Origin: Deltaproteobacteria bacterium
GTDB lineage: Bacteria > Myxococcota_A > Polyangia > JAAYKL01
Direction of reading: 5' to 3'
Assembly: GCA_030621515.1 (NCBI GenBank)
Contig: JAUXHN010000021.1
Span: forward strand, 1-35,901
Length of the DNA: 35,901 nt
Made by a program: the position numbers and the translations under genes. This document shows, piece by piece, positions 8,890 through 33,936 of this stretch. Numbering within the stretch: the first letter of the stretch is position 1; every line of letters begins with the position of its first letter. Under the pieces are notes generated by a model. It was not told where the DNA came from. It was given only the letters and a program-made list of their open reading frames with translations, and did no database searches.

Positions 8890-11271
8890 TCAGCTTTCCT
8901 GGGTATCGGTGGTCCGCGATCCGTAATACGAACCCCGGTAGTAGTGATAGTAGCCCCCGCGTCGCGTGGTAACGCCGTTGATCACCAACCCCTTGACCAG
9001 GTCCATCTTCCTGTGAGTCTGCCCGGACAGCTTGAGCGCCGCACGCCTGCATGCTCTGGGACGAACCACGAAGAGCATCATGTCCGAGAACCGGGAGATC
9101 ACCAGGGAATCCGCCACGAGCAGCGGCGGAGTGTCGAGGAGAACATAGTCGTAGGTGTCCCGCCATCGAGAGACGATATCCGCCAGAGCATCGGACGACA
9201 GGAGTCTCTGGGACTCCGGTGGCTCGTTTCCAGCGGGTACCACGTCCACGTTCCATTGCTCGATATGCCTTACCGGATCCTTGGTTCGCCCCACCAGACA
9301 GTCGGAGATGCCCGGAGAACGCGGAACTCCCCACATCCTGTGCTGAGCGGGCCTTCGAAGATCGAGATCAACAACCACCACCCGTTGACCGGCCTTGGAC
9401 AGAGCTATTGCCAGGTTCGATATCACCGTAGACTTCCCCTCGGACGCCTCGGATGAAGTTATCTGGATGACTCGGATGGGTTTCCCCTCCACCTGGGAGA
9501 ACTCCACGTTGGTTCGCAACGTGCGAAAAGATTCCGCAGCCGGCCCCTTGGGCGCCCCCCATATCTCCGCGATGAGCGGATCCTTGCCCACCACCAATCC
9601 CAGATCCTTGAGGTTGGGAATCACCCCGTAGGGCGATAACCCGGCCATGGTCTTGGCCTCCTCCTCGTCCCTTATTCTGGGATCGATGGCCCTTCGGAGG
9701 AAGACCGCACCCATCCCGACGATCAACCCCAGAAACGCAGCGAGGATCATCGTGGTCAGGCGCCTCGGCTTGCTCTTCTTGAAGGGCGTCGTAGCCGCGT
9801 CGATTATCCGTTTGTCCGTGGTGGTTGACGCCTTGAGGATATTCGCCTCCTCGAGCTTGGTCATGAGGAAGGTGTACAGTTCCTGGCTCACCTCCATCTT
9901 CCTTTTCAGGGACGCCATCCGGCGCTCCTTGTCGGGATAACTCGACAGCTCCGCCTGGATTTCGTCCAGCGCGCGACCGATCCCCCGACGCCTCTCCTTG
10001 ATTCGGTTACGGGAGGCCCGGACGAGTTCGAGCACCTGCACCCTCACTCTCCGGATCTCTTCGTTTAGCCTGACTACCTCCGGGTGGGTGGCCGTCATGT
10101 CTGACAGCAGGGCCTGGCGCTTGAGCTCCAGCTCATTCAACGCGCCGATGGCCTGTCCTAGAAGCTCGTCGTCAAACAGGAAGTCTCCGGTCAGGAAAAC
10201 CGGGCCGCCTTTTTTTCGCACCCGGGCGATCTCGACGACGACCGAAGAAAACAGCTCCTCCTGGATTCTCACCTTGCGAAGCTCCAGCTCCAGTTCGGCG
10301 CCGCCGCTGATGAGTTCCTTCGCCTGCTCGGGCAACATCACCCCGCCCGACTCCTCCAGAAAGACCTGCAGATCGCTCTCCGCCGACTCCAGGCCAATCC
10401 TTATGCTCTCGAGCTGATTCTCGATGAAGGTGGCCGAGAGATCCGCCCTCTTGGTTCGCCACCGGATGGCGAAACCCATGTAGACATCCATGATCTCGTT
10501 GATAAGATCCCTGGCCAGGGTGCGATCCTGATGCATCAACGAGATCCGCACCAGGTTGGTCTCCTTGCGTCCTCCAATGCTCTCCACCGAGATCCGCTCG
10601 ATGATATCTTCGGCGAGCTTGTCGTCGGGCACGATGGTAACGTCGATCTCCGCCCCCGGCGCGGGGCCCTTGCCCTTGCCAACCGAAAAGTGAACACCTC
10701 GCCTGTCGAAACGCCCGCCCACAGGAACGGTCACCGGAGCATCGCCGGACACCACCACGTCGAAGCCACCTCCGGACAGAGCGGTGAACGTCGCCTCGAG
10801 ATTTCTCTCCACCCAGTCGTCCACGTAGCAGCCCTCGATCACACGTCTCAGGGCGCGCAGATCCTTGTCGAGGGGCGACTTGCCGCCCAGAGTGACGCCG
10901 ATATCGATTGTAAAATCCGGGATCTTCTGTGTAATGCCCAGACCCAGTCTGTGCGCGGCCTGTCCGATTATGTACTTGCTCCTCAGGATCTCCACTTCGG
11001 TCTCCACCGGAGACGGCCGCCCGATTCCGGAGAGTTCCAGCAGGGCGCTCGCGCCCGCCGAATCTGAAGAGGAAACCTGCAGGACCCCCGAAGAACTGTA
11101 CTGAGGCACAACGAATATCAGGTACGCGCCCGCCGCCAATATCACCAGAATGAACGGCACAACCAGGGTGCGCCATTCATCGAGGAGGATCACCAGGTAC
11201 TCGGCGATGGAGGTTTCGTCGTCCTCGATCTGGTCGGGTATTGGAACCTCTTTTTGGGGATCGTCCGTCAA
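8890..11271 (-). CDS. Polysaccharide co-polymerase with BY-kinase (Wzc-like tyrosine autokinase)
   Basis: N-term Wzz domain with TM, coiled coil, second TM; Walker A TSSEASEGKST, Walker A' VVVVDLDLRRP, Walker B YDYVLLDTPPLL; C-terminal Tyr cluster RRGGYYHYYRGSYYGSR. TTG start overlapping the upstream gene's stop (TTGA). Confidence 0.9.
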   Translation of the reverse strand: MTDDPQKEVPIPDQIEDDETSIAEYLVILLDEWRTLVVPFILVILAAGAYLIFVVPQYSSSGVLQVSSSDSAGASALLELSGIGRPSPVETEVEILRSKYIIGQAAHRLGLGITQKIPDFTIDIGVTLGGKSPLDKDLRALRRVIEGCYVDDWVERNLEATFTALSGGGFDVVVSGDAPVTVPVGGRFDRRGVHFSVGKGKGPAPGAEIDVTIVPDDKLAEDIIERISVESIGGRKETNLVRISLMHQDRTLARDLINEIMDVYMGFAIRWRTKRADLSATFIENQLESIRIGLESAESDLQVFLEESGGVMLPEQAKELISGGAELELELRKVRIQEELFSSVVVEIARVRKKGGPVFLTGDFLFDDELLGQAIGALNELELKRQALLSDMTATHPEVVRLNEEIRRVRVQVLELVRASRNRIKERRRGIGRALDEIQAELSSYPDKERRMASLKRKMEVSQELYTFLMTKLEEANILKASTTTDKRIIDAATTPFKKSKPRRLTTMILAAFLGLIVGMGAVFLRRAIDPRIRDEEEAKTMAGLSPYGVIPNLKDLGLVVGKDPLIAEIWGAPKGPAAESFRTLRTNVEFSQVEGKPIRVIQITSSEASEGKSTVISNLAIALSKAGQRVVVVDLDLRRPAQHRMWGVPRSPGISDCLVGRTKDPVRHIEQWNVDVVPAGNEPPESQRLLSSDALADIVSRWRDTYDYVLLDTPPLLVADSLVISRFSDMMLFVVRPRACRRAALKLSGQTHRKMDLVKGLVINGVTTRRGGYYHYYRGSYYGSRTTDTQES

Positions 11272-12338
11272 TTGGCCATCCGATCGTAGGTTCGCGTGGC
11301 GTGATCCGCGCCCAACAGGAAGGGAAGGATCTGCTCCATGTACCGGCTCAGGGTTGTCAACGTTGTGGGGGATACCACGATGCGGTCGCCGGGCTGCAAC
11401 AGGATTCGATCACCGTTGTCCAGAATGGAATCGTAGGAGAGCGTGTACACGGTGGGCTCCTGCCAATTGCCCCGTATCAGCTTGATGTTCCTCTCCCTGG
11501 CCTCGACATGGAGGATCCCTCCCACGGAGGCGATCGCCTGTGCCAGACTGAGCCTTCCCCTCTCTATCTTCACCAATCCCGGTTTTTTCACCTCGCCGAA
11601 AACATACACTTTCTGGTCTTCCGAACTGGGGATGTAAATCAGGTCGCCGGATTTCAGGTAGATGTTGCGGCTCATATCCCCACGCAGCAGGATATCCGCG
11701 AGGTTGATGGGAAGCAGGGTCTTGTTGCGCACCACGTACGCGCGCTCCAGGTTCCCCTCGGGTAACACGCCCTTCGCCAGACCGATGGCCTCGAGCAGGG
11801 TTGTGTCGCCGTCCACGGGAAACACGCCCGGTGCCTTGACCTCCCCCAAAACGTAGTACTTTTGTGACTCGTACTGGAGAACGTCCACGGTCAGGTGAGG
11901 CTCCTTGACGTACGCCCCGATGTGCTCTTGTAAAATCCCGTGGATCTCCTCCACCGTGTACCCGGTGACCGGAATCGGACCGATTATCGGAAGGTATATA
12001 TTGCCGTCCTTCTTGACGATTGTGCCGACGATCCCGCGATTGAAATCCCTGGCGGAGGAGAACTCCTCGTGCTCGAGCACCGTGATGTTGAGAATATCGT
12101 TGGGCCCGATCCGATATTCGTCCACCTGAGGCGGAAGCTCCGTGGCCACCTCCTCCACATTCAACGCCCTCGCCGCCAGAGGAACCTCGCTACCCTCTGC
12201 AGGCGACTTGAGGAGGTCTTCCAGATCTCCTTCCTTGGGCGTCGGCCCCACGTGGGGCCCCCCGCATGCGCCGAGCCACGCACAGAGGATCACGACCCCC
12301 GCCGTCCACAAAATCGCCCTGGTACGTTTTACATTCAT
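11268..12338 (-). CDS. Polysaccharide export outer-membrane lipoprotein (Wza-like, SLBB domains)
   Basis: MNVKRTRAILWTAGVVILCAWLGACGG lipobox; YRIGPNDILNITVLEHEEFS...GNIYLPIIGPIPVTGYTVEEIHGIL...; repeated SLBB-like V(L/F)GEVKxPG blocks. ATG at 12338 preferred to the 12563 ORF start. Confidence 0.9.
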   Translation of the reverse strand: MNVKRTRAILWTAGVVILCAWLGACGGPHVGPTPKEGDLEDLLKSPAEGSEVPLAARALNVEEVATELPPQVDEYRIGPNDILNITVLEHEEFSSARDFNRGIVGTIVKKDGNIYLPIIGPIPVTGYTVEEIHGILQEHIGAYVKEPHLTVDVLQYESQKYYVLGEVKAPGVFPVDGDTTLLEAIGLAKGVLPEGNLERAYVVRNKTLLPINLADILLRGDMSRNIYLKSGDLIYIPSSEDQKVYVFGEVKKPGLVKIERGRLSLAQAIASVGGILHVEARERNIKLIRGNWQEPTVYTLSYDSILDNGDRILLQPGDRIVVSPTTLTTLSRYMEQILPFLLGADHATRTYDRMAN

Positions 12339-12405
12339 AACAAACACGAAATATGGCATTTCCAACATGCTATTACAATTTTCGGGAACCCAGTAGAATG
12401 TTGCC

Positions 12406-13416
12406 ATGAATAAAATGATCACACTGCTCAAAAAGGCCGGCGAATTATGCGGATTGGCCATCGTCGGGTTTCTCCTGATCTGCGCGACCGGGTGCGCGGA
12501 TGATGACGGGGAAAAGCTGATACTCATCGAAACGATAGATCTGCCCGACGGCAGGGTAGCCATGCCCTACAGCGCCGTGCTCGAGGCGAGCGACGTGTCC
12601 GGGCCGGTCACATGGTCGGTCACTGCGGGGGATCTGCCTCCGGGGCTGAATCTGTCTCCACTTGACGGCGCGATAACGGGCGAGCCGTCGAAATCCGGAA
12701 GCTACGGATTCACGGTTCAGGCGCAAGATGACGACGGAACCGATGAAGTTGACCTGCAGATCGCCATCCCCACCCTGGTACTGATGAGCGGTTTCGAACC
12801 CTTCGGCATTTACGACACCAATCCTTCATACGAGGCCCTGATCCCTCTTCACGAGCAATTGATCTCGAGCCTGGACATTCGGATAATCGAGATTCCGGTC
12901 ACGTGGGAGTCCGGCTGGACGTCCCTTCTGGATGAGATCGATGATCTCAACCCGGACGTGGTGGTGGGAACGGGCGTGGCCGGCTCGGACGCCATGCGGT
13001 TCGAGACCCTCGCGAGAAACGAAGCCTCCGGCAAGGATGAGGACGACGTGACCCTGAGCGGGGAACCGGTGGTGGAGGGCGGACCGGCCACCATCCCGGC
13101 GGAAATGCCCGTGTCTCAGATGTCCGATGCAATGGAAGACGGCGGCTTCGACACGATGATATCGGACAATGCGGGCGATTTTCTGTGCAACCACGTATTT
13201 TACAACCTGATGTACCATGTGGACAACAGCGACGATCCTCCCGTCGCCGCGGGCTTCATACACGTGCCGCCCGCTCTGAATAGCGGAACCTTCTCGGTGC
13301 AGGACATCACCGCCGCTCACATACTCGGCCTCGAGGCGCTGTCGGCCTGGCTGGATTCGGATCGGGATGTCGGCGATACCGTCGTTTCCACCCACACGGC
13401 CCCGATCTACCTCTGA
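12406..13416 (+). CDS. Lipoprotein with putative Ig (He_PIG-like) domain fused to pyroglutamyl-peptidase I (C15)-like domain
   Basis: LLICATGCADD lipobox; Ig-like PYSAVLEASDVSGPVTWSVTAGDLPPGLNLSPLDGAITGEPSKSGSYGFTVQAQD; C15-like MSGFEPFGIYDTNPSYEAL, GTGVAGSDAMRFETLARN, ISDNAGDFLCNHVFYNLMY, AGFIHVPPA. Confidence 0.82.
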   Translation: MNKMITLLKKAGELCGLAIVGFLLICATGCADDDGEKLILIETIDLPDGRVAMPYSAVLEASDVSGPVTWSVTAGDLPPGLNLSPLDGAITGEPSKSGSYGFTVQAQDDDGTDEVDLQIAIPTLVLMSGFEPFGIYDTNPSYEALIPLHEQLISSLDIRIIEIPVTWESGWTSLLDEIDDLNPDVVVGTGVAGSDAMRFETLARNEASGKDEDDVTLSGEPVVEGGPATIPAEMPVSQMSDAMEDGGFDTMISDNAGDFLCNHVFYNLMYHVDNSDDPPVAAGFIHVPPALNSGTFSVQDITAAHILGLEALSAWLDSDRDVGDTVVSTHTAPIYL

Positions 13417-14258: not shown

Positions 14259-14341
14259 TCGCACATTGCCACAATTGACCACAATCGAATGTCGGTGTAA
14301 CCCAATTGTGTGTTTTCCCTCATATCAGCCGGAGCGATCAT

Positions 14342-16159
14342 ATGAAGAATAGTCGGATAAGCGCCTTTTTGATATCGGTTTTTACGCTTGCGATACTGTG
14401 TTCCCTGGTCGGGGCACAAGCGCGGAAAAAGGGCGGCGACCCGGTTTCAAAGGACACCTACACGCTGTTCGCGAGCGGCGATACCGCCCTGGCCAGGTGG
14501 GTGCACAACGGCTACTACGAAAAGGGCCCAAAGCGCTGCCTCCTGGACCTGAAAGACCTGATATCCGGCGCGGATATCGCCATGACAAACCTCGAGTGCG
14601 TCGTGGCTTCCTGCGGAACGTTCGGCGACAAGGGAGAGCGACGCCCGTTTCTGTATCGGGGACGCCCGGAGCTCCTCGACATCATCACCGAGGTCGGATT
14701 CGACGTGGCAGTGGTTGCCAACAATCACTCGGGAGACTACGGCCCCGACGCGTTTCTGGAAGAGCTCGAACTCCTGAAGGCAACCGGCATGGCCGCAGTG
14801 GGCGGAGGTCGGAACAAGGCGGAGGCATCGACACCTACTTACGTTCAGGCCGGCGATGTCATCGTTGCTTTTCTCGGCGCCGAAACCAAATTCCCCAAGT
14901 TCGCCGCCACCGACACATCCCCCGGCAACTTCTATGCAAAGGAATACTCCAACCTGGAGAATGCCCTGAAGGAGCCGATCGCGGTTGCCAGGAAGCATGC
15001 CGATCTGGTCGTTTTCACCCCACACTGGGGAGACAACTGGACGGACGAACCCACCGGGAAACGCCGAAAGCTCGCCCGAGCGATAATCGATATGGGCGTG
15101 GACGCCATCCTGGGACACTCGGCGCACCACATTCACGGCATCGAGATATACAAGGGCAGACCCATCGTCTACGACATGGGCTCGTTTTTCTTCGATACCG
15201 TGATGCAGAAACGAATGCGCCTCGGGGCCGGCTACGTCCTCACGTTCAGCAAGGCCGGCTTCACAAAGCTTACCATCCATCCCCTCAAGCTGCACTCAAA
15301 CCGGACCGTCTTCGCGAAGGGCGCCGTATTGGAGAAGATCCACAAGCTCCTCATCGATCTCACCGCCGGGTTCGGCACAGGCGTTGCGCCGGTGGTCGAA
15401 GGCGACACTCTCGTTTTTTCATTCTCCCCCGAGGTGCCTCCCACACCGCCGACTCTGAAACCAGAGAACATCCACAAGACAGGCCAGACCAGGAAGCTAC
15501 CGCAGGAGCTCAGATCCAGAAAAACAAACGTAGTCTTCGACACCCCCCCCGGGTGGACAGAGGGTTTCGATTCCATTCCACTCGACAACGGTGTCACCAT
15601 AATCGGCGCCCGCAACCCGGAGGCGGTCTGGCCCCGCAGGGCTTTCACCGCTGAGATAGCGCTGAAGGTTCCCGGCCCCCTCGAGAAGGCGCGATGGGAA
15701 GCCTCGATCAGGGGAGTGCAAAGAGACGGGGAAGAGACCTTCGTCTGGAGACACCCAATCGCCGACGGCGGCTGGCTGCCCTATATCTGGGAGCCCGGAC
15801 AGATCGTCGTTGACCGCACGCTCGTTCGCCCGAAGACCGTCCCCGAGGGCACCTACGATCTCTACTGGAGATTCGAGAATCTATCAAAAAGAACCCACGC
15901 CGCCCCTGTAAACAAGGCCCAGGGAGACTCCGAAGGGTTCGTGCACATCGGCGAGATCCTGATCACCAGGGAGAACATCCCCTCGGGTCCGGCGGGCGTC
16001 TCATGGGACGGCATGCTGCCGCCGAAGGGTGAGGTTCATCCACAAATGGAGCCCGGTGTTCCCCTGTGGCCCTTCTTCGCCGGGGGCGGCGCAGTGCTGC
16101 TGATCATCATCGTCGTGGTGGTGCTCGTCCTCAAGAAGCGGGCCAAAAAAAAGAAATAG
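14342..16159 (+). CDS. CapA-family (PGA_cap metallophosphatase-fold) protein, secreted with C-terminal TM anchor
   Basis: Signal MKNSRISAFLISVFTLAILCSLVGA; FASGDTAL, IAMTNLECVV, VVANNHSGDYG, VFTPHWGDNW, ILGHSAHHIHGIEIYKGRPIVYDMGSFFFD; C-term FAGGGAVLLIIIVVVVLVLKKRAKKKK. Confidence 0.88.
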   Translation: MKNSRISAFLISVFTLAILCSLVGAQARKKGGDPVSKDTYTLFASGDTALARWVHNGYYEKGPKRCLLDLKDLISGADIAMTNLECVVASCGTFGDKGERRPFLYRGRPELLDIITEVGFDVAVVANNHSGDYGPDAFLEELELLKATGMAAVGGGRNKAEASTPTYVQAGDVIVAFLGAETKFPKFAATDTSPGNFYAKEYSNLENALKEPIAVARKHADLVVFTPHWGDNWTDEPTGKRRKLARAIIDMGVDAILGHSAHHIHGIEIYKGRPIVYDMGSFFFDTVMQKRMRLGAGYVLTFSKAGFTKLTIHPLKLHSNRTVFAKGAVLEKIHKLLIDLTAGFGTGVAPVVEGDTLVFSFSPEVPPTPPTLKPENIHKTGQTRKLPQELRSRKTNVVFDTPPGWTEGFDSIPLDNGVTIIGARNPEAVWPRRAFTAEIALKVPGPLEKARWEASIRGVQRDGEETFVWRHPIADGGWLPYIWEPGQIVVDRTLVRPKTVPEGTYDLYWRFENLSKRTHAAPVNKAQGDSEGFVHIGEILITRENIPSGPAGVSWDGMLPPKGEVHPQMEPGVPLWPFFAGGGAVLLIIIVVVVLVLKKRAKKKK

Positions 16160-18086: not shown

Positions 18087-19160
18087 ATGCGCAACGCCAT
18101 CGTCATCGTCCTTGTATTCCTGATCTCGGCATGTCAGTGCGCCGATCCCGTTGCCGTCGACAAGGTTCGCCCGCAGACGGCGCAGGTGACCTTCGCCGGC
18201 GGAATATCCCTCCCCCGATCCATGAACCGGCTGTTCAAGCCCGGGCAAACGATAAGACAACGCAGGAGATTTCTGCGCCCCAGGCTTGTGCGAATTTACG
18301 AGCTTCTCAAGGGACCCGATCTGATCAGTCACAACACGGCCACGGTTGCAAGCCTGAGCACCATTCTGGACAATGACACGTCCACCCCCGATCCGCGCCT
18401 GGCGGAGATACTCAACCTCGCGGGATTCGACGCGATCTCCATCGCCAACCCCGTTGTCGCGAAGGCTGACGAGAAGGGCGTTGAGTCCACCGTGGACGCG
18501 CTTCGCGATTTTCGGATTTCGTCCATCGGCCTGGCAAAAGACCGAATCCCGGAACCTGTCCGGGTTGTTCTGGCCGGCATAGAGGTCTGCTTTCTTGGAG
18601 TTCATCTTTCAGGGCAGGCAGAACCGCCCGACGCCGGCAACTCGATCGCTTCGTGGATCGTCTCGGAGATCGAAACGGCCACATCCAGTATCCGCAATGC
18701 GGTGACGCAGGCCCGAAAATCTGCGGATCTCGTAATGATCGTTTACGGACCCGACAGGTCCATTGACGACAAGGTACGACGGGATTTTGCGCGGGACATG
18801 ATTGACAAGGCGGGAGCGGACGCGGTGCTCGGCCATCGGTCGGGCGCCTTCGAGGGCATCGAACAGCGAGGCGGCGGTATCATCATCCACAACCCGGGCT
18901 TCGCCATGAACCCCAATCTGGAGAAAGAAAAATCCGCCAGTTCCCTGGTCTTCCGCCTGCACATCGACAAGAAGGGCGTCAGCTGGATCGAGGCGCAGCC
19001 CATAAGGGTACGTCGGCACAAGACGTCCATCGGCATGGGCGAGAAGAGAACCCACCAGGTCATCCGAAAACTCATAGATCAATCGAAGAAACTGGGAACG
19101 GAAGTCCTCGCCGAGCACGGTCGCGGCATCTGGGACAGACCGGATAACAAGTCTCAATAG
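18087..19160 (+). CDS. CapA-like lipoprotein lacking the canonical active-site motifs (putative pseudoenzyme)
   Basis: Lipobox MRNAIVIVLVFLISACQC; colinear with the CapA at 14342-16159: VTFAGGISL, LISHNTATV, ISIANPVVAKADE, LVMIVYGPDRS, AVLGHRSGAFEGIEQRGGGIIIHNPG. Confidence 0.7.
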   Translation: MRNAIVIVLVFLISACQCADPVAVDKVRPQTAQVTFAGGISLPRSMNRLFKPGQTIRQRRRFLRPRLVRIYELLKGPDLISHNTATVASLSTILDNDTSTPDPRLAEILNLAGFDAISIANPVVAKADEKGVESTVDALRDFRISSIGLAKDRIPEPVRVVLAGIEVCFLGVHLSGQAEPPDAGNSIASWIVSEIETATSSIRNAVTQARKSADLVMIVYGPDRSIDDKVRRDFARDMIDKAGADAVLGHRSGAFEGIEQRGGGIIIHNPGFAMNPNLEKEKSASSLVFRLHIDKKGVSWIEAQPIRVRRHKTSIGMGEKRTHQVIRKLIDQSKKLGTEVLAEHGRGIWDRPDNKSQ

Positions 19161-19549
19161 CGCAGGGCGTTCGCCGATATCGTAAAGACCGAGACAAAAC
19201 CGGGCTCCCCGCCCTTCACCAGGCGCCAGTAGTACGTCCGACCCGGCTCGAGTTTCTTGAGCCTGTGCGTGTTTTTCACGACCGCCTCATCCACGATCAT
19301 GGTTGAAAAAGTTAAGTCATCGATTGCGACCTGGAGCCTCAATTCACCCTCGCCGTTTCCCTTGCTCCACTGCAACTGGACGTGATCTCTCACCAGGTTC
19401 AGCCCGTGCGGCGGGTGCTGGGGCATGGGATCCACGCTCGAGGTCACCGTCTCGATGGCCGACACCAGGACCACACAAAAGAGACAGACGGGAATCAGGT
19501 AAACGCGCAACCACGCGGCGATCCGCGGTATCAGGCCGGTTCGGGTCAT
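19154..19549 (-). CDS. Small single-TM protein with Fn3-like extracytoplasmic domain (cassette A, small subunit)
   Basis: LRVYLIPVCLFCVVLVSAIETV TM, then GLNLVRDHVQLQWSKGNGEGELRLQVAIDDLTF...LEPGRTYYWRLV. ATG overlaps upstream stop (ATGA). Homologous by eye to 28743-29153 and 29156-29539. Confidence 0.7.
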   Translation of the reverse strand: MTRTGLIPRIAAWLRVYLIPVCLFCVVLVSAIETVTSSVDPMPQHPPHGLNLVRDHVQLQWSKGNGEGELRLQVAIDDLTFSTMIVDEAVVKNTHRLKKLEPGRTYYWRLVKGGEPGFVSVFTISANALRY

Positions 19550-22029
19550 GCCGTCCTCCTTCTGAGCCGCGCGAGCACGCCCGCGACCGACAGCAACCAG
19601 GCGAACAGCGCGATCGCGGCAGCGGCGATGCTGGTGAACATCAGGGCTACATGTCGATCGGGCATCCTCCACTCGAAGGACAGATCGTGCGCCCCTCGTG
19701 GAACAACCACGCCCACCATGTCAGGCCCTGCGGGAAACACCGGGAGCGCCACGCCATCCAGGCGGGCATTCCACCCGGGAACCGCCTTGGTGGGAAGAAT
19801 CGCCACCACATCCTCGAGGGTGTCGATCTCGAATGTGTAACGTTGACTCGAGTGATGTGGGCCGGGCTTCATTTCAATCCGTGCCACCTCGATTCCCGGG
19901 TCGTCATCCTCGCGATAGGCTCGAGTGTGTGCATTGATCTTGTTTCGGGTCTTGGCGTTCAGGGCGGTCCAGAATGACGATGACGATCCGAGGCGAGTGG
20001 TTTCCACTCCCTCGATGTCGAAGGTCGACATGACAAGCCCCCCCCGCGCCGAGAAATCCGCCAGCGCCTCCCGGTCATCTGAAAGCTTGCGCCCATCCAC
20101 GTAGAGCACCCTGAATGACCGACCCAACAGGCCGCTCTCCTCGAGAGAACCCGCCGTAACACGCATGGGGACGGGGATCTTTTCATCCCTCAATTTCCCG
20201 TAAAAACGCGAGACCCAACCCTTTACTATCCATGTCCACTGGGCGCCGGAGCAGACCACAGGCAGCGGCTCGCCGCGCAGAGGGCGAAGGAAACTGTCCT
20301 TTCCGGAGTCCAGAAGGAAGTGATCGGCGTTTTTTTCTTTTGCCCTATCCTTCCCGTTCGGTAGTCGTTCATATATGGGAACCCCGTCGGCATCGCGCGC
20401 CTTGAGGTACTTTTCCACGTGAACCGCCCTGCCGGAAATGAAACGGACTCCGGAGAGGGCCAGCATATCGATTTTCTTCGGCGATCTGCTCGTCGCCGCA
20501 CAAAACTGGAACGTTGTGGTCGGCCCGACGCTGCCCCAGTGGGAGCACGGCGTTCTGTAGCCTTTCGCAACCAGCCACGACTTGTACGATCCCCATTTCT
20601 GTCGACAGAGAACCGCAAAGGGATACCCCTTTTCCTCGAGGGAACCGTGGGCATCGACCATGGAGTCGAGAATCGCCTGCGGGTGCACGCGTACGTGCCT
20701 CTGTGAAAGGATGACTATCTCCGCGCAACAGGCCACCACGCCCGCGACGGATCCCGTGATCAAAAGAGCCGCGAGAACTCCACGAGCGGGGGATCCCCTG
20801 ACGGCCACCACCCTCCAGGCGTGCCTGGCCACGAACTCCAGGCCCACGCCACACAGGCCGAAGGCGAAAAGCTCTATGAGGTAGGTGCATCTGAAAGTTT
20901 GTATGATCTTCATGAATGGCAAATGGCGTAACCACGGATAGTCGTCGGGACCTGCGAAGAGCACCAGGGAGAAAGCAAGCCCACTTAAAAGAAACCTGTT
21001 TGATGTTCGACGAATCCCCATGATCGCCACGATCATACCCAGAGCCGTGAGCGCGGTAACGATGGGCATCCGCGTTCTCCTGGTACCTCCTATGCTGACC
21101 TTGTCCATCAGCTTGTCCAGGGGATCTGTCTGTTTGCCGTGAACCACACGAGGATCGTCGAGCAGCCTGCCGCTCGCCGCGAGCGCCACCATCTCGTCCC
21201 TGGAGACACTGGTGAACCACCATCGCTTTGCCTGCCCCCGGACGATCGAGTCCGGAACGGCTCGCATTTCCAGGGTGTGCTCGATGAACGGAAACACCCA
21301 GAAGGCGACCAGAGCCGCGCCGAAAAGCGCAAACAACACGAGCCTGACCGCGCTGCCACGGATCCGCACGGGCGCGACGAGGTAGTACAGGACTCCAGCG
21401 CACACCGCGTAGATCGCCATCATGGCGTGAGAGAGAAAGGCTGCCGCGAAGAGCAGTGAGGTTGACGACCAGCGATTGTTACCCCGCAGCATGCCGACGA
21501 AACTACCGAGAAACAGCGGGAAGAAGAGCGCCCCCATGGCCTGGGTTGCGATGCCGATTCCGTGATACGCCTCAAACGAGTTTCCGAAAGATCCGACCGA
21601 TATGGCGGCGACGAGGGCGCCGGAGCCCGCCGCGAATCTGCGCAACCCGAGCGCTCGAAGGAAGTAGCAATACGAGAGCGGCGACAGGGAAAAGCAGATC
21701 GTCACCATCAGGTTGTGGACGAACCTCATATCCAGGCCGGTGAGAGATTGAATCGCCACGACCTTCAGGTAGAACAGCGCCTGGTAGAAGCGCAACAGGG
21801 GGAGGCCCACATCCACAGCCACAGGACCGAACAGGTTGTCGCCGGCATCGAGCGCATGAGCCAGGGCGTACTCGCTGAGCAGGTGGTACACGTTGTCGCC
21901 ACCGTTATCGACGACGGGCCCGAGCAGATCGTGATGGGCGATCGCGATCACCACGCCCGCCACCGCCGGCAGCGCCCAGTGAGCCCACTTCCAGAAACTC
22001 AGAAGCGCTATCCTCATACGAGACACCAA
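19546..22029 (-). CDS. Large multi-TM YfhO/PTPS_related (GT-C-like) membrane protein (cassette A)
   Basis: GGDNVYHLLSEYALAHALDAGDNLFGPVAVDVGLPLLRFYQALFYL..., GSFGNSFEAYHGIG, SHAMMAIYAV, RCTYLIELFAFGL; C-terminal beta domain VPGWNARLDGVALPVFPAGPDMVGVVVPRGAHDLSFEW. Confidence 0.75.
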   Translation of the reverse strand: MVSRMRIALLSFWKWAHWALPAVAGVVIAIAHHDLLGPVVDNGGDNVYHLLSEYALAHALDAGDNLFGPVAVDVGLPLLRFYQALFYLKVVAIQSLTGLDMRFVHNLMVTICFSLSPLSYCYFLRALGLRRFAAGSGALVAAISVGSFGNSFEAYHGIGIATQAMGALFFPLFLGSFVGMLRGNNRWSSTSLLFAAAFLSHAMMAIYAVCAGVLYYLVAPVRIRGSAVRLVLFALFGAALVAFWVFPFIEHTLEMRAVPDSIVRGQAKRWWFTSVSRDEMVALAASGRLLDDPRVVHGKQTDPLDKLMDKVSIGGTRRTRMPIVTALTALGMIVAIMGIRRTSNRFLLSGLAFSLVLFAGPDDYPWLRHLPFMKIIQTFRCTYLIELFAFGLCGVGLEFVARHAWRVVAVRGSPARGVLAALLITGSVAGVVACCAEIVILSQRHVRVHPQAILDSMVDAHGSLEEKGYPFAVLCRQKWGSYKSWLVAKGYRTPCSHWGSVGPTTTFQFCAATSRSPKKIDMLALSGVRFISGRAVHVEKYLKARDADGVPIYERLPNGKDRAKEKNADHFLLDSGKDSFLRPLRGEPLPVVCSGAQWTWIVKGWVSRFYGKLRDEKIPVPMRVTAGSLEESGLLGRSFRVLYVDGRKLSDDREALADFSARGGLVMSTFDIEGVETTRLGSSSSFWTALNAKTRNKINAHTRAYREDDDPGIEVARIEMKPGPHHSSQRYTFEIDTLEDVVAILPTKAVPGWNARLDGVALPVFPAGPDMVGVVVPRGAHDLSFEWRMPDRHVALMFTSIAAAAIALFAWLLSVAGVLARLRRRTA

Positions 22030-22054: not shown

Positions 22055-22107
22055 CCTTCACTCGTTTACTTGTCTACCTTCGAATGATATTTTTTTCAAA
22101 ATACCGT
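22055..22107 (+). promoter_or_regulatory. 53-bp promoter/operator repeat, copy 1
   Basis: CCTTCACTCGTTTACTTGTCTACCTTCGAATGATATTTTTTTCAAAATACCGT; TTTACT-N17-TATTTT; inverted repeat over the -10. 48/53 identical to copy 2. Confidence 0.6.
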
Positions 22108-22123
22108 TCGAATGGAGGACGAG

Positions 22124-23512
22124 TTGTTCAAGAAAATGCCGGATGTTTTCGTGATCGTGTTCGCGCTGATCGTCATTGCGGCGGCGCTTACATGGATCCT
22201 CCCCGGCGGTGCCTTCGAGCGGAGAAAGGAGATAGTCGATGATCACGAGCGGGAGGTGGTTGTCGAGGGGTCTTTTCGCTTTGAAGAATCGAAACCGCAA
22301 CATTTTCACGTTTTCACCGCGCCGCTAAAAGGTTTTCTGAAACTCGCGGACATAATTGTGTTTATCTTTTTGGTGGGCGGTTCATTTTACATACTCAATG
22401 AGACCGGAGCGATATCCGCGGGCACCCACAAGCTAGTGAAGGCACTGCGCGGAAGGGAGCTCCTCGTGATTCCCATCGTGATGGTCTTCTTTTCATTTTT
22501 CGGGGCGGCTTTTGGAATGTGCGAGGAGGCCATGCCCTTTGCGTTGATCTTCGTCCCGATGGCGATTGCCCTCGGATACGACTCCATAGTGGGAGTATGT
22601 CTCACGTTTCTCGCTGCGGGGGTCGGCTTTGCGGGGGCGTTCCTGAACCCATTCACGCTGCAGATTGCTCAGGGGTTGGCCGGCATACCGCCGGTGTCAG
22701 GTCTGGGATACCGCCTGGTGGTGTGGGGCATTGTCACCACTCTGGCGATCGTCTGGGTGATGATCTACGCGACGCGGATCAAAAAGGATCCGAAGAAGAG
22801 CCCGATGTATGAGCTCGACCGGAAGCGGCGCGCGGAGATTCTGAAACATCAGGCGGCGCATTCGGTGTTCAGCTGGCGTCATGGTCTGAGTCTGGGGCTA
22901 CTTGCGATCACCATCGGCGTCATGATCCTCGGGGTTATCGCGCTTGACTGGTACATCGTGGAACTCGGTGGTCTCTTCTTCGCCATGGGGGTGTTGACCG
23001 GCGTGGTATCCGGCATGGGTCCCAACGCGCTCGCAAGGTCCTTTATTGCCGGCGCAAAAGATATGGCCGGCGCCGCCCTGGTGGTTGGTTTTGCCGGTGG
23101 AATCCTGGTTATCCTGGACGAAGGCAACATCATGGATACCATTCTGTACGGAATGGCCAGCGCAACCTCCAGCTTGCCGTCCATGCTGGCTGCGGACGCG
23201 ATGTACGTTATCCAGATGGGGTTGAACTTCTTCATCCCATCAGGTTCCACCAAGGCCGCCCTGACGATGCCTCTGATGGCTCCGCTGGCGGATCTCTCGG
23301 GAATCACCCGCCAGACGGCAGTGCTGGCGTATCAACTCGGTGACGGATTCACCAACATGATCATTCCCACTTCCGGCGTGACCGTCGGCACCCTGGCCAT
23401 GGCCAGGATTCCGTTTCAGAAATGGGCCAGGTGGAATCTACCCATGCAGGTTGTGTTTTTTTTCCTGTCACTTGGTTTGCTCGTCTGGCCGGTTCTCACT
23501 ATGTGGGAGTAG
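22124..23512 (+). CDS. YfcC/DcuC-superfamily (C4-dicarboxylate or basic amino acid antiporter-like) membrane transporter
   Basis: VFALIVIAAALTWILPGGAFERR, GAAFGMCEEAMPFALIFVPMAIALGYDSIVG, NPFTLQIAQGLAGI, FFIPSGSTKAALTMPLMAPLADLSGITRQTAVLAYQLGDGFTNMIIPTSGV. TTG at 22124 preferred over ATG 22112 because GGAGGA is at 22114-22119. Confidence 0.8.
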   Translation: MFKKMPDVFVIVFALIVIAAALTWILPGGAFERRKEIVDDHEREVVVEGSFRFEESKPQHFHVFTAPLKGFLKLADIIVFIFLVGGSFYILNETGAISAGTHKLVKALRGRELLVIPIVMVFFSFFGAAFGMCEEAMPFALIFVPMAIALGYDSIVGVCLTFLAAGVGFAGAFLNPFTLQIAQGLAGIPPVSGLGYRLVVWGIVTTLAIVWVMIYATRIKKDPKKSPMYELDRKRRAEILKHQAAHSVFSWRHGLSLGLLAITIGVMILGVIALDWYIVELGGLFFAMGVLTGVVSGMGPNALARSFIAGAKDMAGAALVVGFAGGILVILDEGNIMDTILYGMASATSSLPSMLAADAMYVIQMGLNFFIPSGSTKAALTMPLMAPLADLSGITRQTAVLAYQLGDGFTNMIIPTSGVTVGTLAMARIPFQKWARWNLPMQVVFFFLSLGLLVWPVLTMWE

Positions 23513-23601
23513 TCGGCGGCCCGGGGTAAAGCCGAGTGAGGTGTTCTATCTGGTAAATGCAGGCTGGAAAAATCGCCATGCTCCCCCTCTCAATGTGAAA
23601 C

Positions 23602-23654
23602 CCTTCACTCATTTACTTGTCTACCCTTGAATGGTATTTTTTCCAAAATACCGT
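23602..23654 (+). promoter_or_regulatory. 53-bp promoter/operator repeat, copy 2
   Basis: CCTTCACTCATTTACTTGTCTACCCTTGAATGGTATTTTTTCCAAAATACCGT; TTTACT (23612-23617)-N17-TATTTT (23635-23640); perfect inverted repeat GGTATTTT-TTCC-AAAATACC (23633-23652). Confidence 0.6.
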
Positions 23655-23703
23655 CGCCAAAAGAGGACTTGCGTAACCACATTTTTTTTCACAGGGTTTC
23701 CGA

Positions 23704-25146
23704 TTGCTTTTCAACTCCTACATCTTCCTGTTCGCTTTTCTTCCCCTCGCGTGGATAACGTTTCGGGTTCTTTCCATGGTGGGTCTCATCAGAGGCGCCA
23801 TCGCCTGCCTGACCGTTGCGTCACTCGCCTTCTATTCCTACTGGAACCCTCCGTTCGTCCTGCTGATTCTCTTCTCCATCGTCTTCAATTTCATCTGGGG
23901 AAGCTTCCTGACCCGCGCAGGGACCAGGAAACGATGGCGACTCTTCATTGGAGTGGCGGTGAATCTGAGCCTGATAGGCTACTTCAAGTACACCGGTTTT
24001 TTCATTGAAAACGCCAACGCATTGTTCAGCCTGAGTTCGAAAGTCCCGGACATATTCCTGCCGCTGGGAATCTCTTTCTTCACCTTCCAGCAAATCGCAT
24101 ATCTCGTCGATTGCCACCGCGGCATCACCAGGGAGCACAGCTTTTTACAATATTGCCTCTTCGTGACCTTCTTTCCCCAGTTGATCGCGGGACCGATCGT
24201 GCATCACGGCGAGATGATGACCCAGTTTTCCGACGAAAGGACTTTCCGTTACAACCCCGAAAACATGGCAACGGGCTTCGCGATCTTCTCCATGGGCCTG
24301 TTCAAAAAGGTCATCATCGCCGACACCCTTTCACCATGGGTGGCCGACATTTTTGATGGAAACGGCGAACCTGCCATGTTGGTAGCTTCGTGGATCGGCA
24401 GCCTGGCCTACACTTTCCAGATCTATTTCGACTTCAGCGGATACTCGGACATGGCGCTCGGCCTGGGGCATTTCTTCAACATCAAGATACCCATCAACTT
24501 CGACGCTCCGTACAAATCCAGAAACATGGTGGAGTTCTGGCAACGCTGGCACATGACCCTGTCCCGCTTCTTGCGCGAATACCTGTACATTCCGCTGGGC
24601 GGCAACCGCAAGGGCACACCGAGACGGTATGTCAATCTCATGGCCGTCATGCTCATCGGCGGCCTCTGGCACGGAGCTGCATGGACCTTCGTCTTCTGGG
24701 GAGGGCTCCACGGGCTCTACCTTTGCATCAACCACGGTTGGGGCAAGATCTCCACCAGATTGGGGTTCAGGCTTCCGCTCGTTTTGGCGTGGGCGCTGAC
24801 CTTCGTCGCGACGGTCTTCGCGTGGGTGTTCTTCAGAGCCGCGACCTTCGGCGCAGCGACTAATATCATCAAGGGGATGGCGGGCTTCAACGGCGTGGAG
24901 AATATGAGGGCCACCTTGCTCAACTCTTCAAACAATGAGTTGATGCCCTGGTTTCCCGGAGACGAGCGGGTCGTGATCCTTATCGCCCTGCTGGCGATGT
25001 GCGTCTCCATGCCCGTGGGCTGGAGATGGGCGCGGGAGAGATTGAAGAGGCTGACTGTCCCCGGAGCGATCTTCGCGGGCTTGCTGTTTTCGTCATCGGT
25101 GCTCGGACTGACACGGATATCCGAGTTCCTTTATTTTCAGTTCTGA
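23704..25146 (+). CDS. MBOAT-family O-acyltransferase (AlgI-like)
   Basis: LLFNSYIFLFAFLPLAW, FKYTGFF, LPLGISFFTFQQIAYLVD, FFPQLIAGPIVHH, NFDAPYKSRNMVEFWQRWHMTLSRFLREYLYIPLGGNRKG, GGLWHGAAWTFVFWGGLHG. TTG start. Confidence 0.92.
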   Translation: MLFNSYIFLFAFLPLAWITFRVLSMVGLIRGAIACLTVASLAFYSYWNPPFVLLILFSIVFNFIWGSFLTRAGTRKRWRLFIGVAVNLSLIGYFKYTGFFIENANALFSLSSKVPDIFLPLGISFFTFQQIAYLVDCHRGITREHSFLQYCLFVTFFPQLIAGPIVHHGEMMTQFSDERTFRYNPENMATGFAIFSMGLFKKVIIADTLSPWVADIFDGNGEPAMLVASWIGSLAYTFQIYFDFSGYSDMALGLGHFFNIKIPINFDAPYKSRNMVEFWQRWHMTLSRFLREYLYIPLGGNRKGTPRRYVNLMAVMLIGGLWHGAAWTFVFWGGLHGLYLCINHGWGKISTRLGFRLPLVLAWALTFVATVFAWVFFRAATFGAATNIIKGMAGFNGVENMRATLLNSSNNELMPWFPGDERVVILIALLAMCVSMPVGWRWARERLKRLTVPGAIFAGLLFSSSVLGLTRISEFLYFQF

Positions 25147-25160
25147 CGGGCAAAGTGACC

Positions 25161-26327
25161 ATGAACCACAAATGGAAAATCTGGCTGCTCGCATTTTTGA
25201 TGACGGTATTGCTCTGTCTGGGAGGCATCACAATCTACCAGGTATCGGTCGATCCTTTCGGCGTGTGGAGGTCCGACACAACCGCAGGATACAACAACTA
25301 CAAGATCGCCCAGAAGCAGACGGAACGGGTCTTCAAGATGTATCAGTACGAGATGATAAAACCCGAAGTTGCCTTCTTCGGATCGTCGCGGACCAACTAC
25401 TGCACCCCTCCCGAGTGGCCAGGCGTGACAGACGAGAAAGTATACAATTTCGGTATCACCGCCGTTCATATCCCTGAAGAGAAGTTCTACCTTGACGCGG
25501 CCCTCGATATTCACACGCCAGGGATCGTCGCAATCGCCGTTGACCTCCTCCAGTTCAGTTCCAGATACAACAGGCCTCACAAGGGGTACTCGGAAGACCG
25601 CCTCTGGATGATGACCTTCCACAGGATGACGTCCCTGGTCTCCAAGCTCAAGGATACGGTCCTCTCGTTCGACGCGATCGGCTCTTCGATGGAAGTCACA
25701 GAAGCGAGCGAAAGGAACCCGGACGCAACCTACTACGACCGCGGGTGGGACACCGTACGGCTAACCAGGTGGCCAACCGGGCGCGCGAAGTTCAGGCAAA
25801 TTCTCTTTCGGTATCACACCAACACGTACGCCAAGTTCAGGCGATCCTTCTTCAACTACAAGAAGTTCGAGGTGATGATCGAATCTGCGAAGAAAAAGGG
25901 CGTGAAGGTCGTGATGTACACCAACCCCGTGCACGCGGATTTTCTGATGGCGTACGACATCAACGAGCTGTGGGAAGAGTTCGAGTTCATGAAACGCGAA
26001 ATCGTCAAGCTCGGCCCGCTGTGGGATTTCAACTACATCAACGACGTTTCCAAAAACCGCGACAACTACATCGACCCCTCACATTTCAAGATCTCGATCG
26101 GCCGCCGGATCACCAGCATCCTCGGCAACAACGCCTCCGAAGAAGGAAAGGACTTCGGCGTGATCCTGACCGAGGACAACATAGAGAAAATTTTGATTGA
26201 ACAACGGTCTGCCTTCGATGAATGGAAGACCAGGGACACAGCTGTCTACTACATGCTCGAGGAGGCCCGAGAAGACAGGAACAAGGCGAGGTTCCATCAA
26301 AAAGCCATACGGCTCATCGGGAGGTAG
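25161..26327 (+). CDS. SGNH-like/AlgJ-type membrane-anchored protein, partner of the MBOAT
   Basis: N-term TM WLLAFLMTVLLCLGGITIYQV; VDPFGVWR; KPEVAFFGSSRTNY (GxS block) and NYIDPSHFK (DxxH block). ATG at 25161, 14 bp after MBOAT stop. Confidence 0.72.
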   Translation: MNHKWKIWLLAFLMTVLLCLGGITIYQVSVDPFGVWRSDTTAGYNNYKIAQKQTERVFKMYQYEMIKPEVAFFGSSRTNYCTPPEWPGVTDEKVYNFGITAVHIPEEKFYLDAALDIHTPGIVAIAVDLLQFSSRYNRPHKGYSEDRLWMMTFHRMTSLVSKLKDTVLSFDAIGSSMEVTEASERNPDATYYDRGWDTVRLTRWPTGRAKFRQILFRYHTNTYAKFRRSFFNYKKFEVMIESAKKKGVKVVMYTNPVHADFLMAYDINELWEEFEFMKREIVKLGPLWDFNYINDVSKNRDNYIDPSHFKISIGRRITSILGNNASEEGKDFGVILTEDNIEKILIEQRSAFDEWKTRDTAVYYMLEEAREDRNKARFHQKAIRLIGR

Positions 26328-28743
26328 GTTTTCGCAACTTCCTTCTCAGGCGGCCGGCTCCCAGGAAAACCCCAAACCCGAGCAATCCGACCCATCCGAA
26401 AAGAGAAATGCCCATGGATACGCTCTCGAGCACCGTGGCCTCGTACGCAAAGCGAACCTCGTGTTCTCCCGCCGGAACGATCACCGCAACCAGGTCCGGG
26501 CCGGTGCTCATCACGGTCACCGATTCGCCGTCCACATAGGCTCGCCAATTGTCGAAGAACTGCATGGAAAGCACCAGCAAGGTCGCTTCAGAGGAAGTCA
26601 CCTCGTAAACGAGCTGCCCCGGATCCTCCGCTCCATCCATCCTCCGCATCGAGGCTCCGACCGCTTCTCGAGGCGACAGTTCCAGAACCCCCTCCCACGT
26701 GGAATCATCCTTCCCAAATACACGCGTCTTTACACCCTCTATGTCCATGGCCGATATCAGCTTCTTGCCAGACCTGGCGATCGCCTTCAGGGCGGGAAGA
26801 TCATGTTGGAGGTTACTGTCATCCAGGTACATCACCGCGTCGACCGAATCGATCAGGTCCTCCCGGCCGAGGACCGATGACGGCGCTGTCAGCATCCAGG
26901 GTGTCGCCGCTTCGCCCACCTTCGAAGCCCATCTGCGCACCCATGACTTGCTCAACCAGTACCACTGCCCGGGGCTCGCCACGATGAGCACCCGCGGCCC
27001 CGCCAGTTCGTGCAGCATGGCAGCGTTCAGATCCTCTACCACCGTCATCCTGCCTGTCCGGCCGAGTTTTTTGTATTCTCCCGGCCTCGCTTCAAGCAAC
27101 TGATCGACTCCATCCTTGCCGATCACCATGAACCGAACTCCCATAATTCTTGCGTACCGGGACGCATTCCACATCCTTCCGAGCGGACCACAAACATGAA
27201 GGTTCAACGTAGGTGACGGTGAGGTCCAGTGGTTGCAAACGGTCTGGTAACCACCCTTGACCTCCATCCTGTGCTCGAGCGCATACCTGAACTTCCTGCC
27301 GGGCCGCCGAAACTTGACCGCTACCCGTTTGGGGGCATCGGTTCCCTGCGCCCTGTTGAGTATGCGCACGACCTTGTCGAAGTCTTTCACGTCCCAGAAA
27401 TCCATCATGGGGGTGACAATGCGTATCATCGTCAAGACAAAGCCTGTCGCAATAACGAACGCCCCTGCAACGACAATGTACTTTACGACCACCCTCGGAA
27501 ACGGCCTGATCGCCAACCTGTAGGCCAGCGCTCCGAGCCGGTAGGCGCCGAATGCGGCCAGGGCCATGCAGAAAAACTCAATGAAGTAGCTCACCCTGAA
27601 AGCCTGGACCTTGTTGACCAGCGGCAGTCGAAACAGGAGCGGAAAATCGTCTGTTCCAAGGAGGAACATCACTCCGGTCGCAAGTCCGGCGATCAAAAAC
27701 CGATTCTTGGGATCCCGAATGCCGATTATGGCAAAGATGATTCCCACGCCGGTCAGCAGCGTAAAAAATGGAAATCTCTGGTTGGCGGTCCCGGCCATGT
27801 TCAACTTGATTTCGGACTTGGCGTCAGGAGAATCATCCATCTCACCACCGTCCAGCAGCCTCCCCGAAACCAGAAATCGCCCCATCTCATCCGGCGCCAG
27901 GCCCGCAAACCAGAAAATCCGATCCGGGCGAGCGACAATATCGGAGACGGGCTTCTTTTGCTGCTGCATGTGAACAAATGGCAGCACCCACCCGGCAGCA
28001 AGCACGCCGGCCAGCACCGCCGCGGTCCCGAGTTTCAGCCATATCTCCTTCTTCGCGGGAAGATAGATCAACACGGCCAGCAGGGCTGCAAACGCCGCAT
28101 ACACGGCAAACATCGCGTGAGCAAGAACCGTCAGCGCCATCAATACCCCGGCGGACACCACTTTGCGGCCATCCTTGATGATGTCGATCAACGCCGCCAT
28201 TGCCAGGGGCATCAAGACCGAGGCCAGTACCTGGGTGAGAAACCCCATCTCGTAGTAAGCCTCGAAGGAATTGGAGGTACCGTTGATGGAACCGATGCAG
28301 AGCAGCCCTGCGGCGCCCGCCGCCATGGGGTGAAACCCAAGAGAGAGACAGAATTTGCGGTACGACCAGGGGGTGGCCGCAAACAGAAACGTGATCATCC
28401 AGTTGTGCACGATCGTCGTCGAAAGACCCGTGATGAGCTGGATGGTCCCGCCCATCAAGTATTGGAGAAATTGATAGAACCGGAAACCCGGGAGACCGAA
28501 CATTGTTGGAAGCAACCCCAGCGGATTGCGTCCGGCGGCGATGGTCTGCGCTGTGAGGTTTTGCGTGGACTGGTGGAAGTTGTCGTCCCATGCGATGCTG
28601 GATTCACCCTTGAGAAACGGATAACAAAGGTAGATGACCAGGCCCGATGCGATGGCGGGCAGAACCCAGGTCATCGCCTTCGCCGCTCTATCGACGATTC
28701 GCTCTGGGAAACGGGCTTCCGTGTTGTCTCCTGACTCAATCAT
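26314..28743 (-). CDS. Large multi-TM YfhO/PTPS_related (GT-C-like) membrane protein (cassette B)
   Basis: AWDDNFHQSTQNLTAQTIAAGRNPLGLLPTMFGLPGFRFYQFLQYL, GTSNSFEAYYEMG, AHAMFAVYAAF, RVSYFIEFFCMAL; C-term FFDNWRAYVDGESVTVMSTGPDLVAVIVPAGEHEVRFAYE. ATG overlaps upstream stop (TAATG). Confidence 0.75.
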   Translation of the reverse strand: MIESGDNTEARFPERIVDRAAKAMTWVLPAIASGLVIYLCYPFLKGESSIAWDDNFHQSTQNLTAQTIAAGRNPLGLLPTMFGLPGFRFYQFLQYLMGGTIQLITGLSTTIVHNWMITFLFAATPWSYRKFCLSLGFHPMAAGAAGLLCIGSINGTSNSFEAYYEMGFLTQVLASVLMPLAMAALIDIIKDGRKVVSAGVLMALTVLAHAMFAVYAAFAALLAVLIYLPAKKEIWLKLGTAAVLAGVLAAGWVLPFVHMQQQKKPVSDIVARPDRIFWFAGLAPDEMGRFLVSGRLLDGGEMDDSPDAKSEIKLNMAGTANQRFPFFTLLTGVGIIFAIIGIRDPKNRFLIAGLATGVMFLLGTDDFPLLFRLPLVNKVQAFRVSYFIEFFCMALAAFGAYRLGALAYRLAIRPFPRVVVKYIVVAGAFVIATGFVLTMIRIVTPMMDFWDVKDFDKVVRILNRAQGTDAPKRVAVKFRRPGRKFRYALEHRMEVKGGYQTVCNHWTSPSPTLNLHVCGPLGRMWNASRYARIMGVRFMVIGKDGVDQLLEARPGEYKKLGRTGRMTVVEDLNAAMLHELAGPRVLIVASPGQWYWLSKSWVRRWASKVGEAATPWMLTAPSSVLGREDLIDSVDAVMYLDDSNLQHDLPALKAIARSGKKLISAMDIEGVKTRVFGKDDSTWEGVLELSPREAVGASMRRMDGAEDPGQLVYEVTSSEATLLVLSMQFFDNWRAYVDGESVTVMSTGPDLVAVIVPAGEHEVRFAYEATVLESVSMGISLFGWVGLLGFGVFLGAGRLRRKLRKPTSR

Positions 28744-29153
28744 TATCGGTAGGGAATCATCGCGGGTGTCGTCTCGAAGCACGACGTGACCGCATCGGCA
28801 TCGTCGAGCACCCGCCAGCAGTATTTTTTCCCTCTGTCCAATCTGGGAAGAACCAGGCTTGTTTTTCTGGTCTTCTTGCTCAGCACCAGCTGTTCGAAAT
28901 CACCGTCAACAGCAACCTGAACCGCAAACTCACCGTCATGGTCGCCGCTTCGCCATGAGAGTCGAATCCTTTCCTCATGAGCAACATACCCGTCGGGCGG
29001 GATCTGCGGCGCCGGGTCGACCCCGAAAATTGTGCCGGCAAGGATCTCGCAGACGACCAGAATCACAAGAGCGCCGGTCACACCGTAGCTGACCGTCGGG
29101 CGAACTCCTGCCCTGAGCTGGTCCATGTCGATCCTGGGTTTCTTCTTTTTCAC
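28743..29153 (-). CDS. Small single-TM Fn3-like protein (cassette B/C)
   Basis: GALVILVVCEILAGTIFGV TM; PPDGYVAHEERIRLSWRSGDHDGEFAVQVAVDGDFEQLVLSKKTRKTSLVLPRLDRGKKYCWRVLDDADAVTSCFET. Start GTG 29153 or ATG 29126. Confidence 0.7.
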   Translation of the reverse strand: MKKKKPRIDMDQLRAGVRPTVSYGVTGALVILVVCEILAGTIFGVDPAPQIPPDGYVAHEERIRLSWRSGDHDGEFAVQVAVDGDFEQLVLSKKTRKTSLVLPRLDRGKKYCWRVLDDADAVTSCFETTPAMIPYR

Positions 29154-33934: not shown

Positions 33935-33936
33935 CT

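Follow-up and report, generated by a model that had tools for sequence, protein, structure and literature searches.

A conserved gene pair predicted to encode a GT-C-fold glycosyltransferase and a fibronectin-III partner, in three divergent copies at a bacterial polysaccharide locus

Introduction

What is the role of a gene pair that occurs three times within 13 kb of one bacterial contig, each time in a divergent form, and do its two products act together? The question arises from a 35,901-nucleotide stretch of a Deltaproteobacteria bacterium genome (assembly GCA_030621515.1, contig JAUXHN010000021.1; hereafter, the window), in which three cassettes each encode a large polytopic membrane protein (large A, B, or C) and a small protein with a single membrane helix (small a, b, or c). 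We consider it fairly probable that the two products of each cassette form a GT-C glycosyltransferase of two subunits, which would use polyprenyl-phosphate sugars to decorate a polysaccharide in the periplasm. The genes and junctions in question are as follows; types I and II are the two clades described under Results.

29536-32055, minus strand: large C, type II
29156-29539, minus strand: small c, type II, with a Cys pair
29536-29539, minus strand: ATGA overlap of large C and small c
28743-29153, minus strand: small b, type II, with the Cys pair YCWR...SCF
26314-28743, minus strand: large B, a divergent type II member
19546-22029, minus strand: large A, type I, a polytopic membrane protein with a predicted GT-C fold (827-codon open reading frame)
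19154-19549, minus strand: small a, type I, one N-terminal membrane helix and a predicted fibronectin-III-like periplasmic domain (131 aa, counted from the ATG)
19546-19549, minus strand: four-base stop/start overlap ATGA, formed by the TGA of large A and the ATG of small a
19555-19561, minus strand: strong Shine-Dalgarno-like AAGGAGG for small a, read from the sequence within the end of large A

Results

The gene order on the minus strand is C-c-b-B ... A-a. At the junction of large A and small a, the letters read ...AAGGAGGACGGCATGACC..., and five bases separate the AAGGAGG from the ATG of small a. The original prediction, which was made from the sequence of the window, held that A/a and C/c overlap by ATGA in the same manner, and both overlaps were recovered. 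The middle pair is reversed: small b lies upstream of large B and shares a single base with it (TAATG), with no ATGA.

The three larges are clearly homologous. BLASTP aligned A with C (350 bits, E = 8e-112), A with B (303 bits, E = 1e-94), and C with B (337 bits, E = 6e-107) over ~780-820 residues, the soluble C-terminal half included, and A is ~30% identical to B and C. Alignments of this span rule out the possibility, named in the original prediction as the one that would overturn it, that the larges are alike merely through generic membrane segments. The smalls have diverged further, b and c being 25% and 21% identical to small a, and in their alignment certain Pro, Trp, and Tyr positions are invariant.

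The predicted fold of the large protein points to a family of enzymes. An AlphaFold2 model of large A, built with 24 sequences (pLDDT 84.9, pTM 0.85), had 18 matches in the Protein Data Bank at E ≤ 0.001, all of them GT-C enzymes or oligosaccharyltransferase assemblies; the closest solved structures are AftD (E = 8e-10), AglB, AftA, PglB, STT3 subunits, ArnT, and DPY19. The model contains the GT-C transmembrane core and, after the first transmembrane helix (TM1), an extracytoplasmic loop with juxtamembrane helices. Asp45 is situated in this first periplasmic loop, directly before the first juxtamembrane helix, and is present in 23/23 aligned rows that cover the position; GT-C enzymes are recognized, among other features, by an acidic residue conserved in that loop. 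The last two membrane helices flank a large periplasmic region of 364 (A), 330 (B), or 334 (C) residues, comparable to the 389-residue loop at the same place in Bacillus subtilis YfhO (PMC5836110).

Family assignments by profile are less direct. Single members gave weak Pfam matches to PTPS_related (8/24) and YfhO (7/24). For PTPS_related (PF10131; cut-off 26.4 bits), the paralogs D (32.1 bits) and E (27.6 bits), introduced below, score above the cut-off, and A (14.5 bits) and B (22.7 bits) below it. From the same class, the relative L025 scores 35.7 bits with YfhO, above the cut-off of that family, and 101 bits with a profile of the larges, and so links the large family to YfhO. In NCBIfam, both large and small had sub-threshold matches only, including weak C-terminal matches to the PgfM1/PgfM2 glycosyltransferases. 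We predict that large A is a glycosyltransferase of the GT-C fold and that it is related to the YfhO and PTPS_related families.

In the small protein, basic residues come before the single N-terminal membrane helix, and a fibronectin-III (FnIII) sandwich comes after it. Its AlphaFold2 model (pLDDT 84.7) has FnIII domains as top Foldseek matches, and its profile matches an FnIII domain of titin; matches of single sequences to Pfam fn3 are weak. With the predicted topology, the FnIII domain would face the periplasm, as does the big domain of the large.

To the three local pairs foreseen in the original prediction, which stand, the rest of the genome adds more, and the size of the family had thus been understated. 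The source genome (G000; 4.64 Mb, 346 contigs) holds at least five larges (A, B, C, E on contig C94, and D on contig C336) and four smalls. The nearest paralog of A is not a neighbor in the window (B or C) but E (50% identity), which has its own small; D is 35% identical to A and has none. Among 14 genomes searched of the same bacterial family, 13 encode both larges and smalls, and in 12 of these 13 the small adjoins a large. Outside the class, the pair also occurs in a single genome of the phylum (G319, apparently JAADFL), where both loci carry both genes. Elsewhere in 318 genomes of the class and 377 of the phylum, we found partial, distant matches only.

We next consider the age of the cassettes. 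A first tree of 29 rows with distant outgroups placed B beside a very long outgroup branch; the tree was rebuilt, and the final trees contain no distant outgroups. The large tree consists of two clades, type I and type II (support 99/99), and the small tree has an identical split (support 100/98). Type I larges are A, E, the single-copy orthologs of other genera, D, and a second copy in G006; type II larges are C, B, a second copy in G007, and two JAADFL copies. Most type II smalls have the Cys pair YCWR...SCF, where type I smalls mostly have YYWR. A/a groups with a 1:1 ortholog from each of two congeners (89% and 86%); A, E, and C each have separate orthologs in congeners. Constraining smalls a, b, and c to one clade was rejected by the approximately unbiased (AU) test (p-AU 0.001). 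A as a genus-level copy of E was likewise ruled out by the large tree (p-AU 0.009), yet the small tree does not reject such a duplication (p-AU 0.22).

Physical pairs also share their history. Distances among larges and among smalls in physical pairs correlate at 0.857, and only 3 of 3456 within-genome re-pairings, the observed pairing included, reach this value; the best alternatives swap only JAADFL copies 1 and 2 or B and C. This co-phylogeny check, which the original prediction had put forward as a test of pairing, supports the pairing.

Gene order and coupling follow the cassettes as well. An exact ATGA overlap is found in each of the nine large-to-small cassettes (A and C in three genomes each, the second G007 copy, and both JAADFL copies); both congeneric orthologs of A/a have it. 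Where the small comes first, the two genes share 1, 14, or 17 bases or are separated by a short gap, and two switches of gene order suffice on the large tree. ATGA overlaps are common in bacteria, and the significance therefore lies in retention across lineages and not in any single overlap. Because both trees split alike, few re-pairings fit as well, and the ATGA is kept, the data support a trio that combines ancient, separately inherited cassettes, A/a of type I and B/b and C/c of type II. The original prediction took the copies to be subfunctionalized rather than recently duplicated, and the grouping of A/a with orthologs of other genomes, apart from B/b and C/c, bears out their age.

Judged by its genes, the window is a polysaccharide locus. 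It also encodes a CpsB-like phosphatase, two PGA_cap proteins, and the MBOAT and DUF1574 proteins listed below, and three further rows give the context:

8890-12563, minus strand: Wzc-like chain-length/tyrosine kinase and Poly_export/SLBB export protein (polysaccharide export context)
32759-34902, minus strand: DegT-type aminotransferase and GDP-L-fucose synthase-like epimerase (sugar-nucleotide context)
32039-32749, plus strand: GT2-family glycosyltransferase, divergent from large C (head-to-head), resembling dolichyl-phosphate sugar synthases

The GT2 protein resembles Pyrococcus furiosus DPMS (dolichol-phosphate mannose synthase; E = 1.8e-11) and AglJ, and its place beside large C is kept in G002. 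In G007, a GT2 fused to a methyltransferase lies directly upstream of a type II large, the fusion ending where the large begins, and in JAADFL a small TMEM234-like membrane protein is upstream of one type II large. Of the set formed by a polyprenyl-phosphate-sugar synthase, a flippase, and a GT-C enzyme, the window offers the DPMS/AglJ-like GT2 beside C; no flippase was recognized in the window, and the one GtrA-family candidate of the genome is on another contig. As a separate observation, the TTG start of the GT2 gene (32039, plus strand) and the ATG of large C (32055, minus strand) overlap head-to-head by ~17 bases, which leaves no room for a conventional divergent promoter; one of the two starts may be wrong.

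Discussion

We suggest that the large would be the catalytic subunit, embedded in the membrane, where it would bind a polyprenyl-phosphate-linked sugar. The invariant Asp of its first periplasmic loop would serve as the catalytic residue, and the sugar would be added onto a glycan in the periplasm. The small would be a single-pass subunit whose FnIII domain is positioned beside the periplasmic region of the large, where it may stabilize the enzyme or help to hold or position the acceptor. ATGA coupling would yield matched amounts of the two proteins. The type I pair A/a and the type II pairs B/b and C/c would differ in the sugar or linkage that each adds to the polysaccharide made at this locus, and the divergence of the cassettes is consistent with different substrates.

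Several observations weigh against this model. First, whole-chain TM-scores of large A against GT-C structures are modest (0.3-0.5), and a sequence search of the large against solved structures gave no match at E ≤ 1. Second, B (25.1 bits) and C (23.2 bits) fall below the curated YfhO cut-off of 28.5 bits (PF09586), and A has no match. Third, most type I loci have no adjacent donor synthase. Fourth, genetic linkage accounts for part of the co-phylogeny of large and small, so the agreement of the trees shows co-inheritance of the cassette and not contact. Finally, small and large do not always lie together. In G009, small and large are on separate contigs, both retained, with a methyltransferase following the small (L116, L115), and in two lineages (C336/C385 and G006:C157) a large has no small nearby, from which it follows that some larges may work alone. 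The genomes are fragmented metagenome assemblies, and fragmentation could partly explain absent smalls, but the flanks at C336 and C157 are present without one. The larges without a small (L121 in G000:C336, L122 in G001:C385, and L119 in G006:C157) are shorter, at 783-795 residues, and in D some stretches ahead of the last periplasmic domain are missing.

The cases without a small would also suit an unlikely alternative, in which the large is a GT-C glycosyltransferase and the small, rather than a subunit, is an acceptor reserved for it or an independent FnIII protein of the periplasm that accompanies it in the operon. Some glycosyltransferases are encoded beside their own substrate, and FnIII domains are common as secreted modules. 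An acceptor or companion of this kind fits poorly with a protein of ~130 residues that has a conserved Trp/Tyr/Pro core and, as far as the alignment shows, lacks a tail rich in Ser/Thr, or with a pairing that persists across both deep clades and whose two trees agree.

Slightly less probable again is that the large is another GT-C-fold enzyme, for example one that polymerizes or ligates complete lipid-linked repeat units instead of transferring single sugars. Among the best structural matches are the oligosaccharyltransferases AglB and PglB, and the window has Wzc/Poly_export-type export genes with no Wzy or WaaL recognized in it. The top structural matches, however, are single-sugar arabinosyltransferases (AftD), the YfhO architecture suits single-sugar modification, a GT2 resembling polyprenyl-phosphate-monosaccharide synthases adjoins C, and five divergent copies per genome fit decoration better than polymerization. 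A fast-diverging local tandem triplication, with the clades as long-branch effects, is very improbable: the three cassettes do lie within 13 kb and B is a long branch, but A/a resembles its neighbors less than it does relatives from other genera and from other parts of its own genome, a single a+b+c clade is rejected, and A, E, and C have their own orthologs in congeners, so that the trees and AU tests rule out a recent event of this kind.

How would a two-subunit GT-C glycosyltransferase compare with known systems? YfhO (PF09586), part of the CsbB-GtcA-YfhO lipoteichoic acid system of B. subtilis and Staphylococcus aureus, resembles the larges in being polytopic and GT-C-like, with a big extracytoplasmic region between the last two helices and a related C-terminal domain, the connection running through L025. 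It differs in that the window members score below the Pfam cut-off, the present host is no Gram-positive with lipoteichoic acid, and no single-pass FnIII partner of YfhO is described in the literature examined. PTPS_related matches over the N-terminal 170 positions, with E and D, unlike large A, above its cut-off; we know of no established function for this family. Mycobacterial AftD, the best structural match, is a GT-C enzyme with large periplasmic domains as well, but is much larger than large A and 12% identical to it in sequence.

Two further systems bear on the partner and the donor. In three-component periplasmic glycosylation (GtrA/GtrB/Gtr; GT136 system, PMC11127046), a polyprenyl-phosphate sugar synthase and a flippase work with a GT-C enzyme that modifies a periplasmic polysaccharide, as the cassettes are proposed to do; unlike these systems, the cassettes have an extra small FnIII subunit and no recognized flippase in the window. 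Closer in architecture is GPI mannosyltransferase I (PIG-M/PIG-X; Gpi14/Pbn1), a GT-C catalytic subunit with a single-pass partner that has an extracytoplasmic beta-sheet domain and works as proposed here (PMC12653191, PMC9306709). That enzyme is eukaryotic, and the membrane helix of PIG-X is C-terminal where that of the small is N-terminal; the likeness is one of architecture, with no recognized sequence relation between small and PIG-X, and for the cassettes a heterodimer is proposed on genetic pairing and co-phylogeny. It appears to be the sole comparable two-subunit architecture that we found, such transferases being described mainly in eukaryotes.

We hold it possible, just short of an even chance, that a bacterial lineage evolved obligate heterodimeric GT-C glycosyltransferases with co-inherited single-pass FnIII subunits, an independent counterpart of PIG-M/PIG-X, and multiplied them into parallel sets that decorate a surface polysaccharide. 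The GT-C enzyme itself is of a known kind, and what appears to be new is the conserved bacterial partner subunit; we found no description of a GT-C enzyme with an FnIII subunit in the open-access literature searched, and publication elsewhere is possible. The cassettes are natural candidates for two-protein GT-C enzymes in bacteria and come with built-in controls, namely paralogs that have or lack a small, two classes of pairing, and both orders of the genes, so that the role of a non-catalytic subunit can be tested by partner swapping.

Other features of the window

Between the copies, on the opposite strand, a transporter and an O-acyltransferase pair had been predicted, and we found them there:

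22112-23512, plus strand: YfcC/DcuC-type transporter
23704-25146, plus strand: MBOAT O-acyltransferase, DltB/AlgI-like (context)
24999-26327, plus strand: DUF1574 protein, partner of the MBOAT protein (context)

The transporter adjoins A in all three congeners and is probably unrelated to A/a in function. The stretch between C/c and A/a (22060-29150) varies among congeners when compared with L123 and L124. The congeners lack B/b, MBOAT, and DUF1574 in it; in G002 the transporter is its sole gene, and in G001 it holds a 784-residue protein without family and a PGA_cap protein instead. Compared across genera for a clue to substrate, the neighborhoods of type I pairs hold mostly different genes in each genus and thus indicate no shared pathway.

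Three further observations concern other genes. Two divergent PGA_cap (CapA-like) proteins, at 14306-16159 and 18087-19160 (plus strand), lie within 5 kb around a DUF4350/ABC_transp_aux-like protein. At 12406-13416 (plus strand), a lipoprotein-like product combines an Ig-like (He_PIG) domain with one that resembles pyroglutamyl peptidases. Finally, the gene at 4773-7985 (minus strand) encodes 1070 residues in which an LPG-synthase-type membrane region is fused to a sulfatase-family domain.

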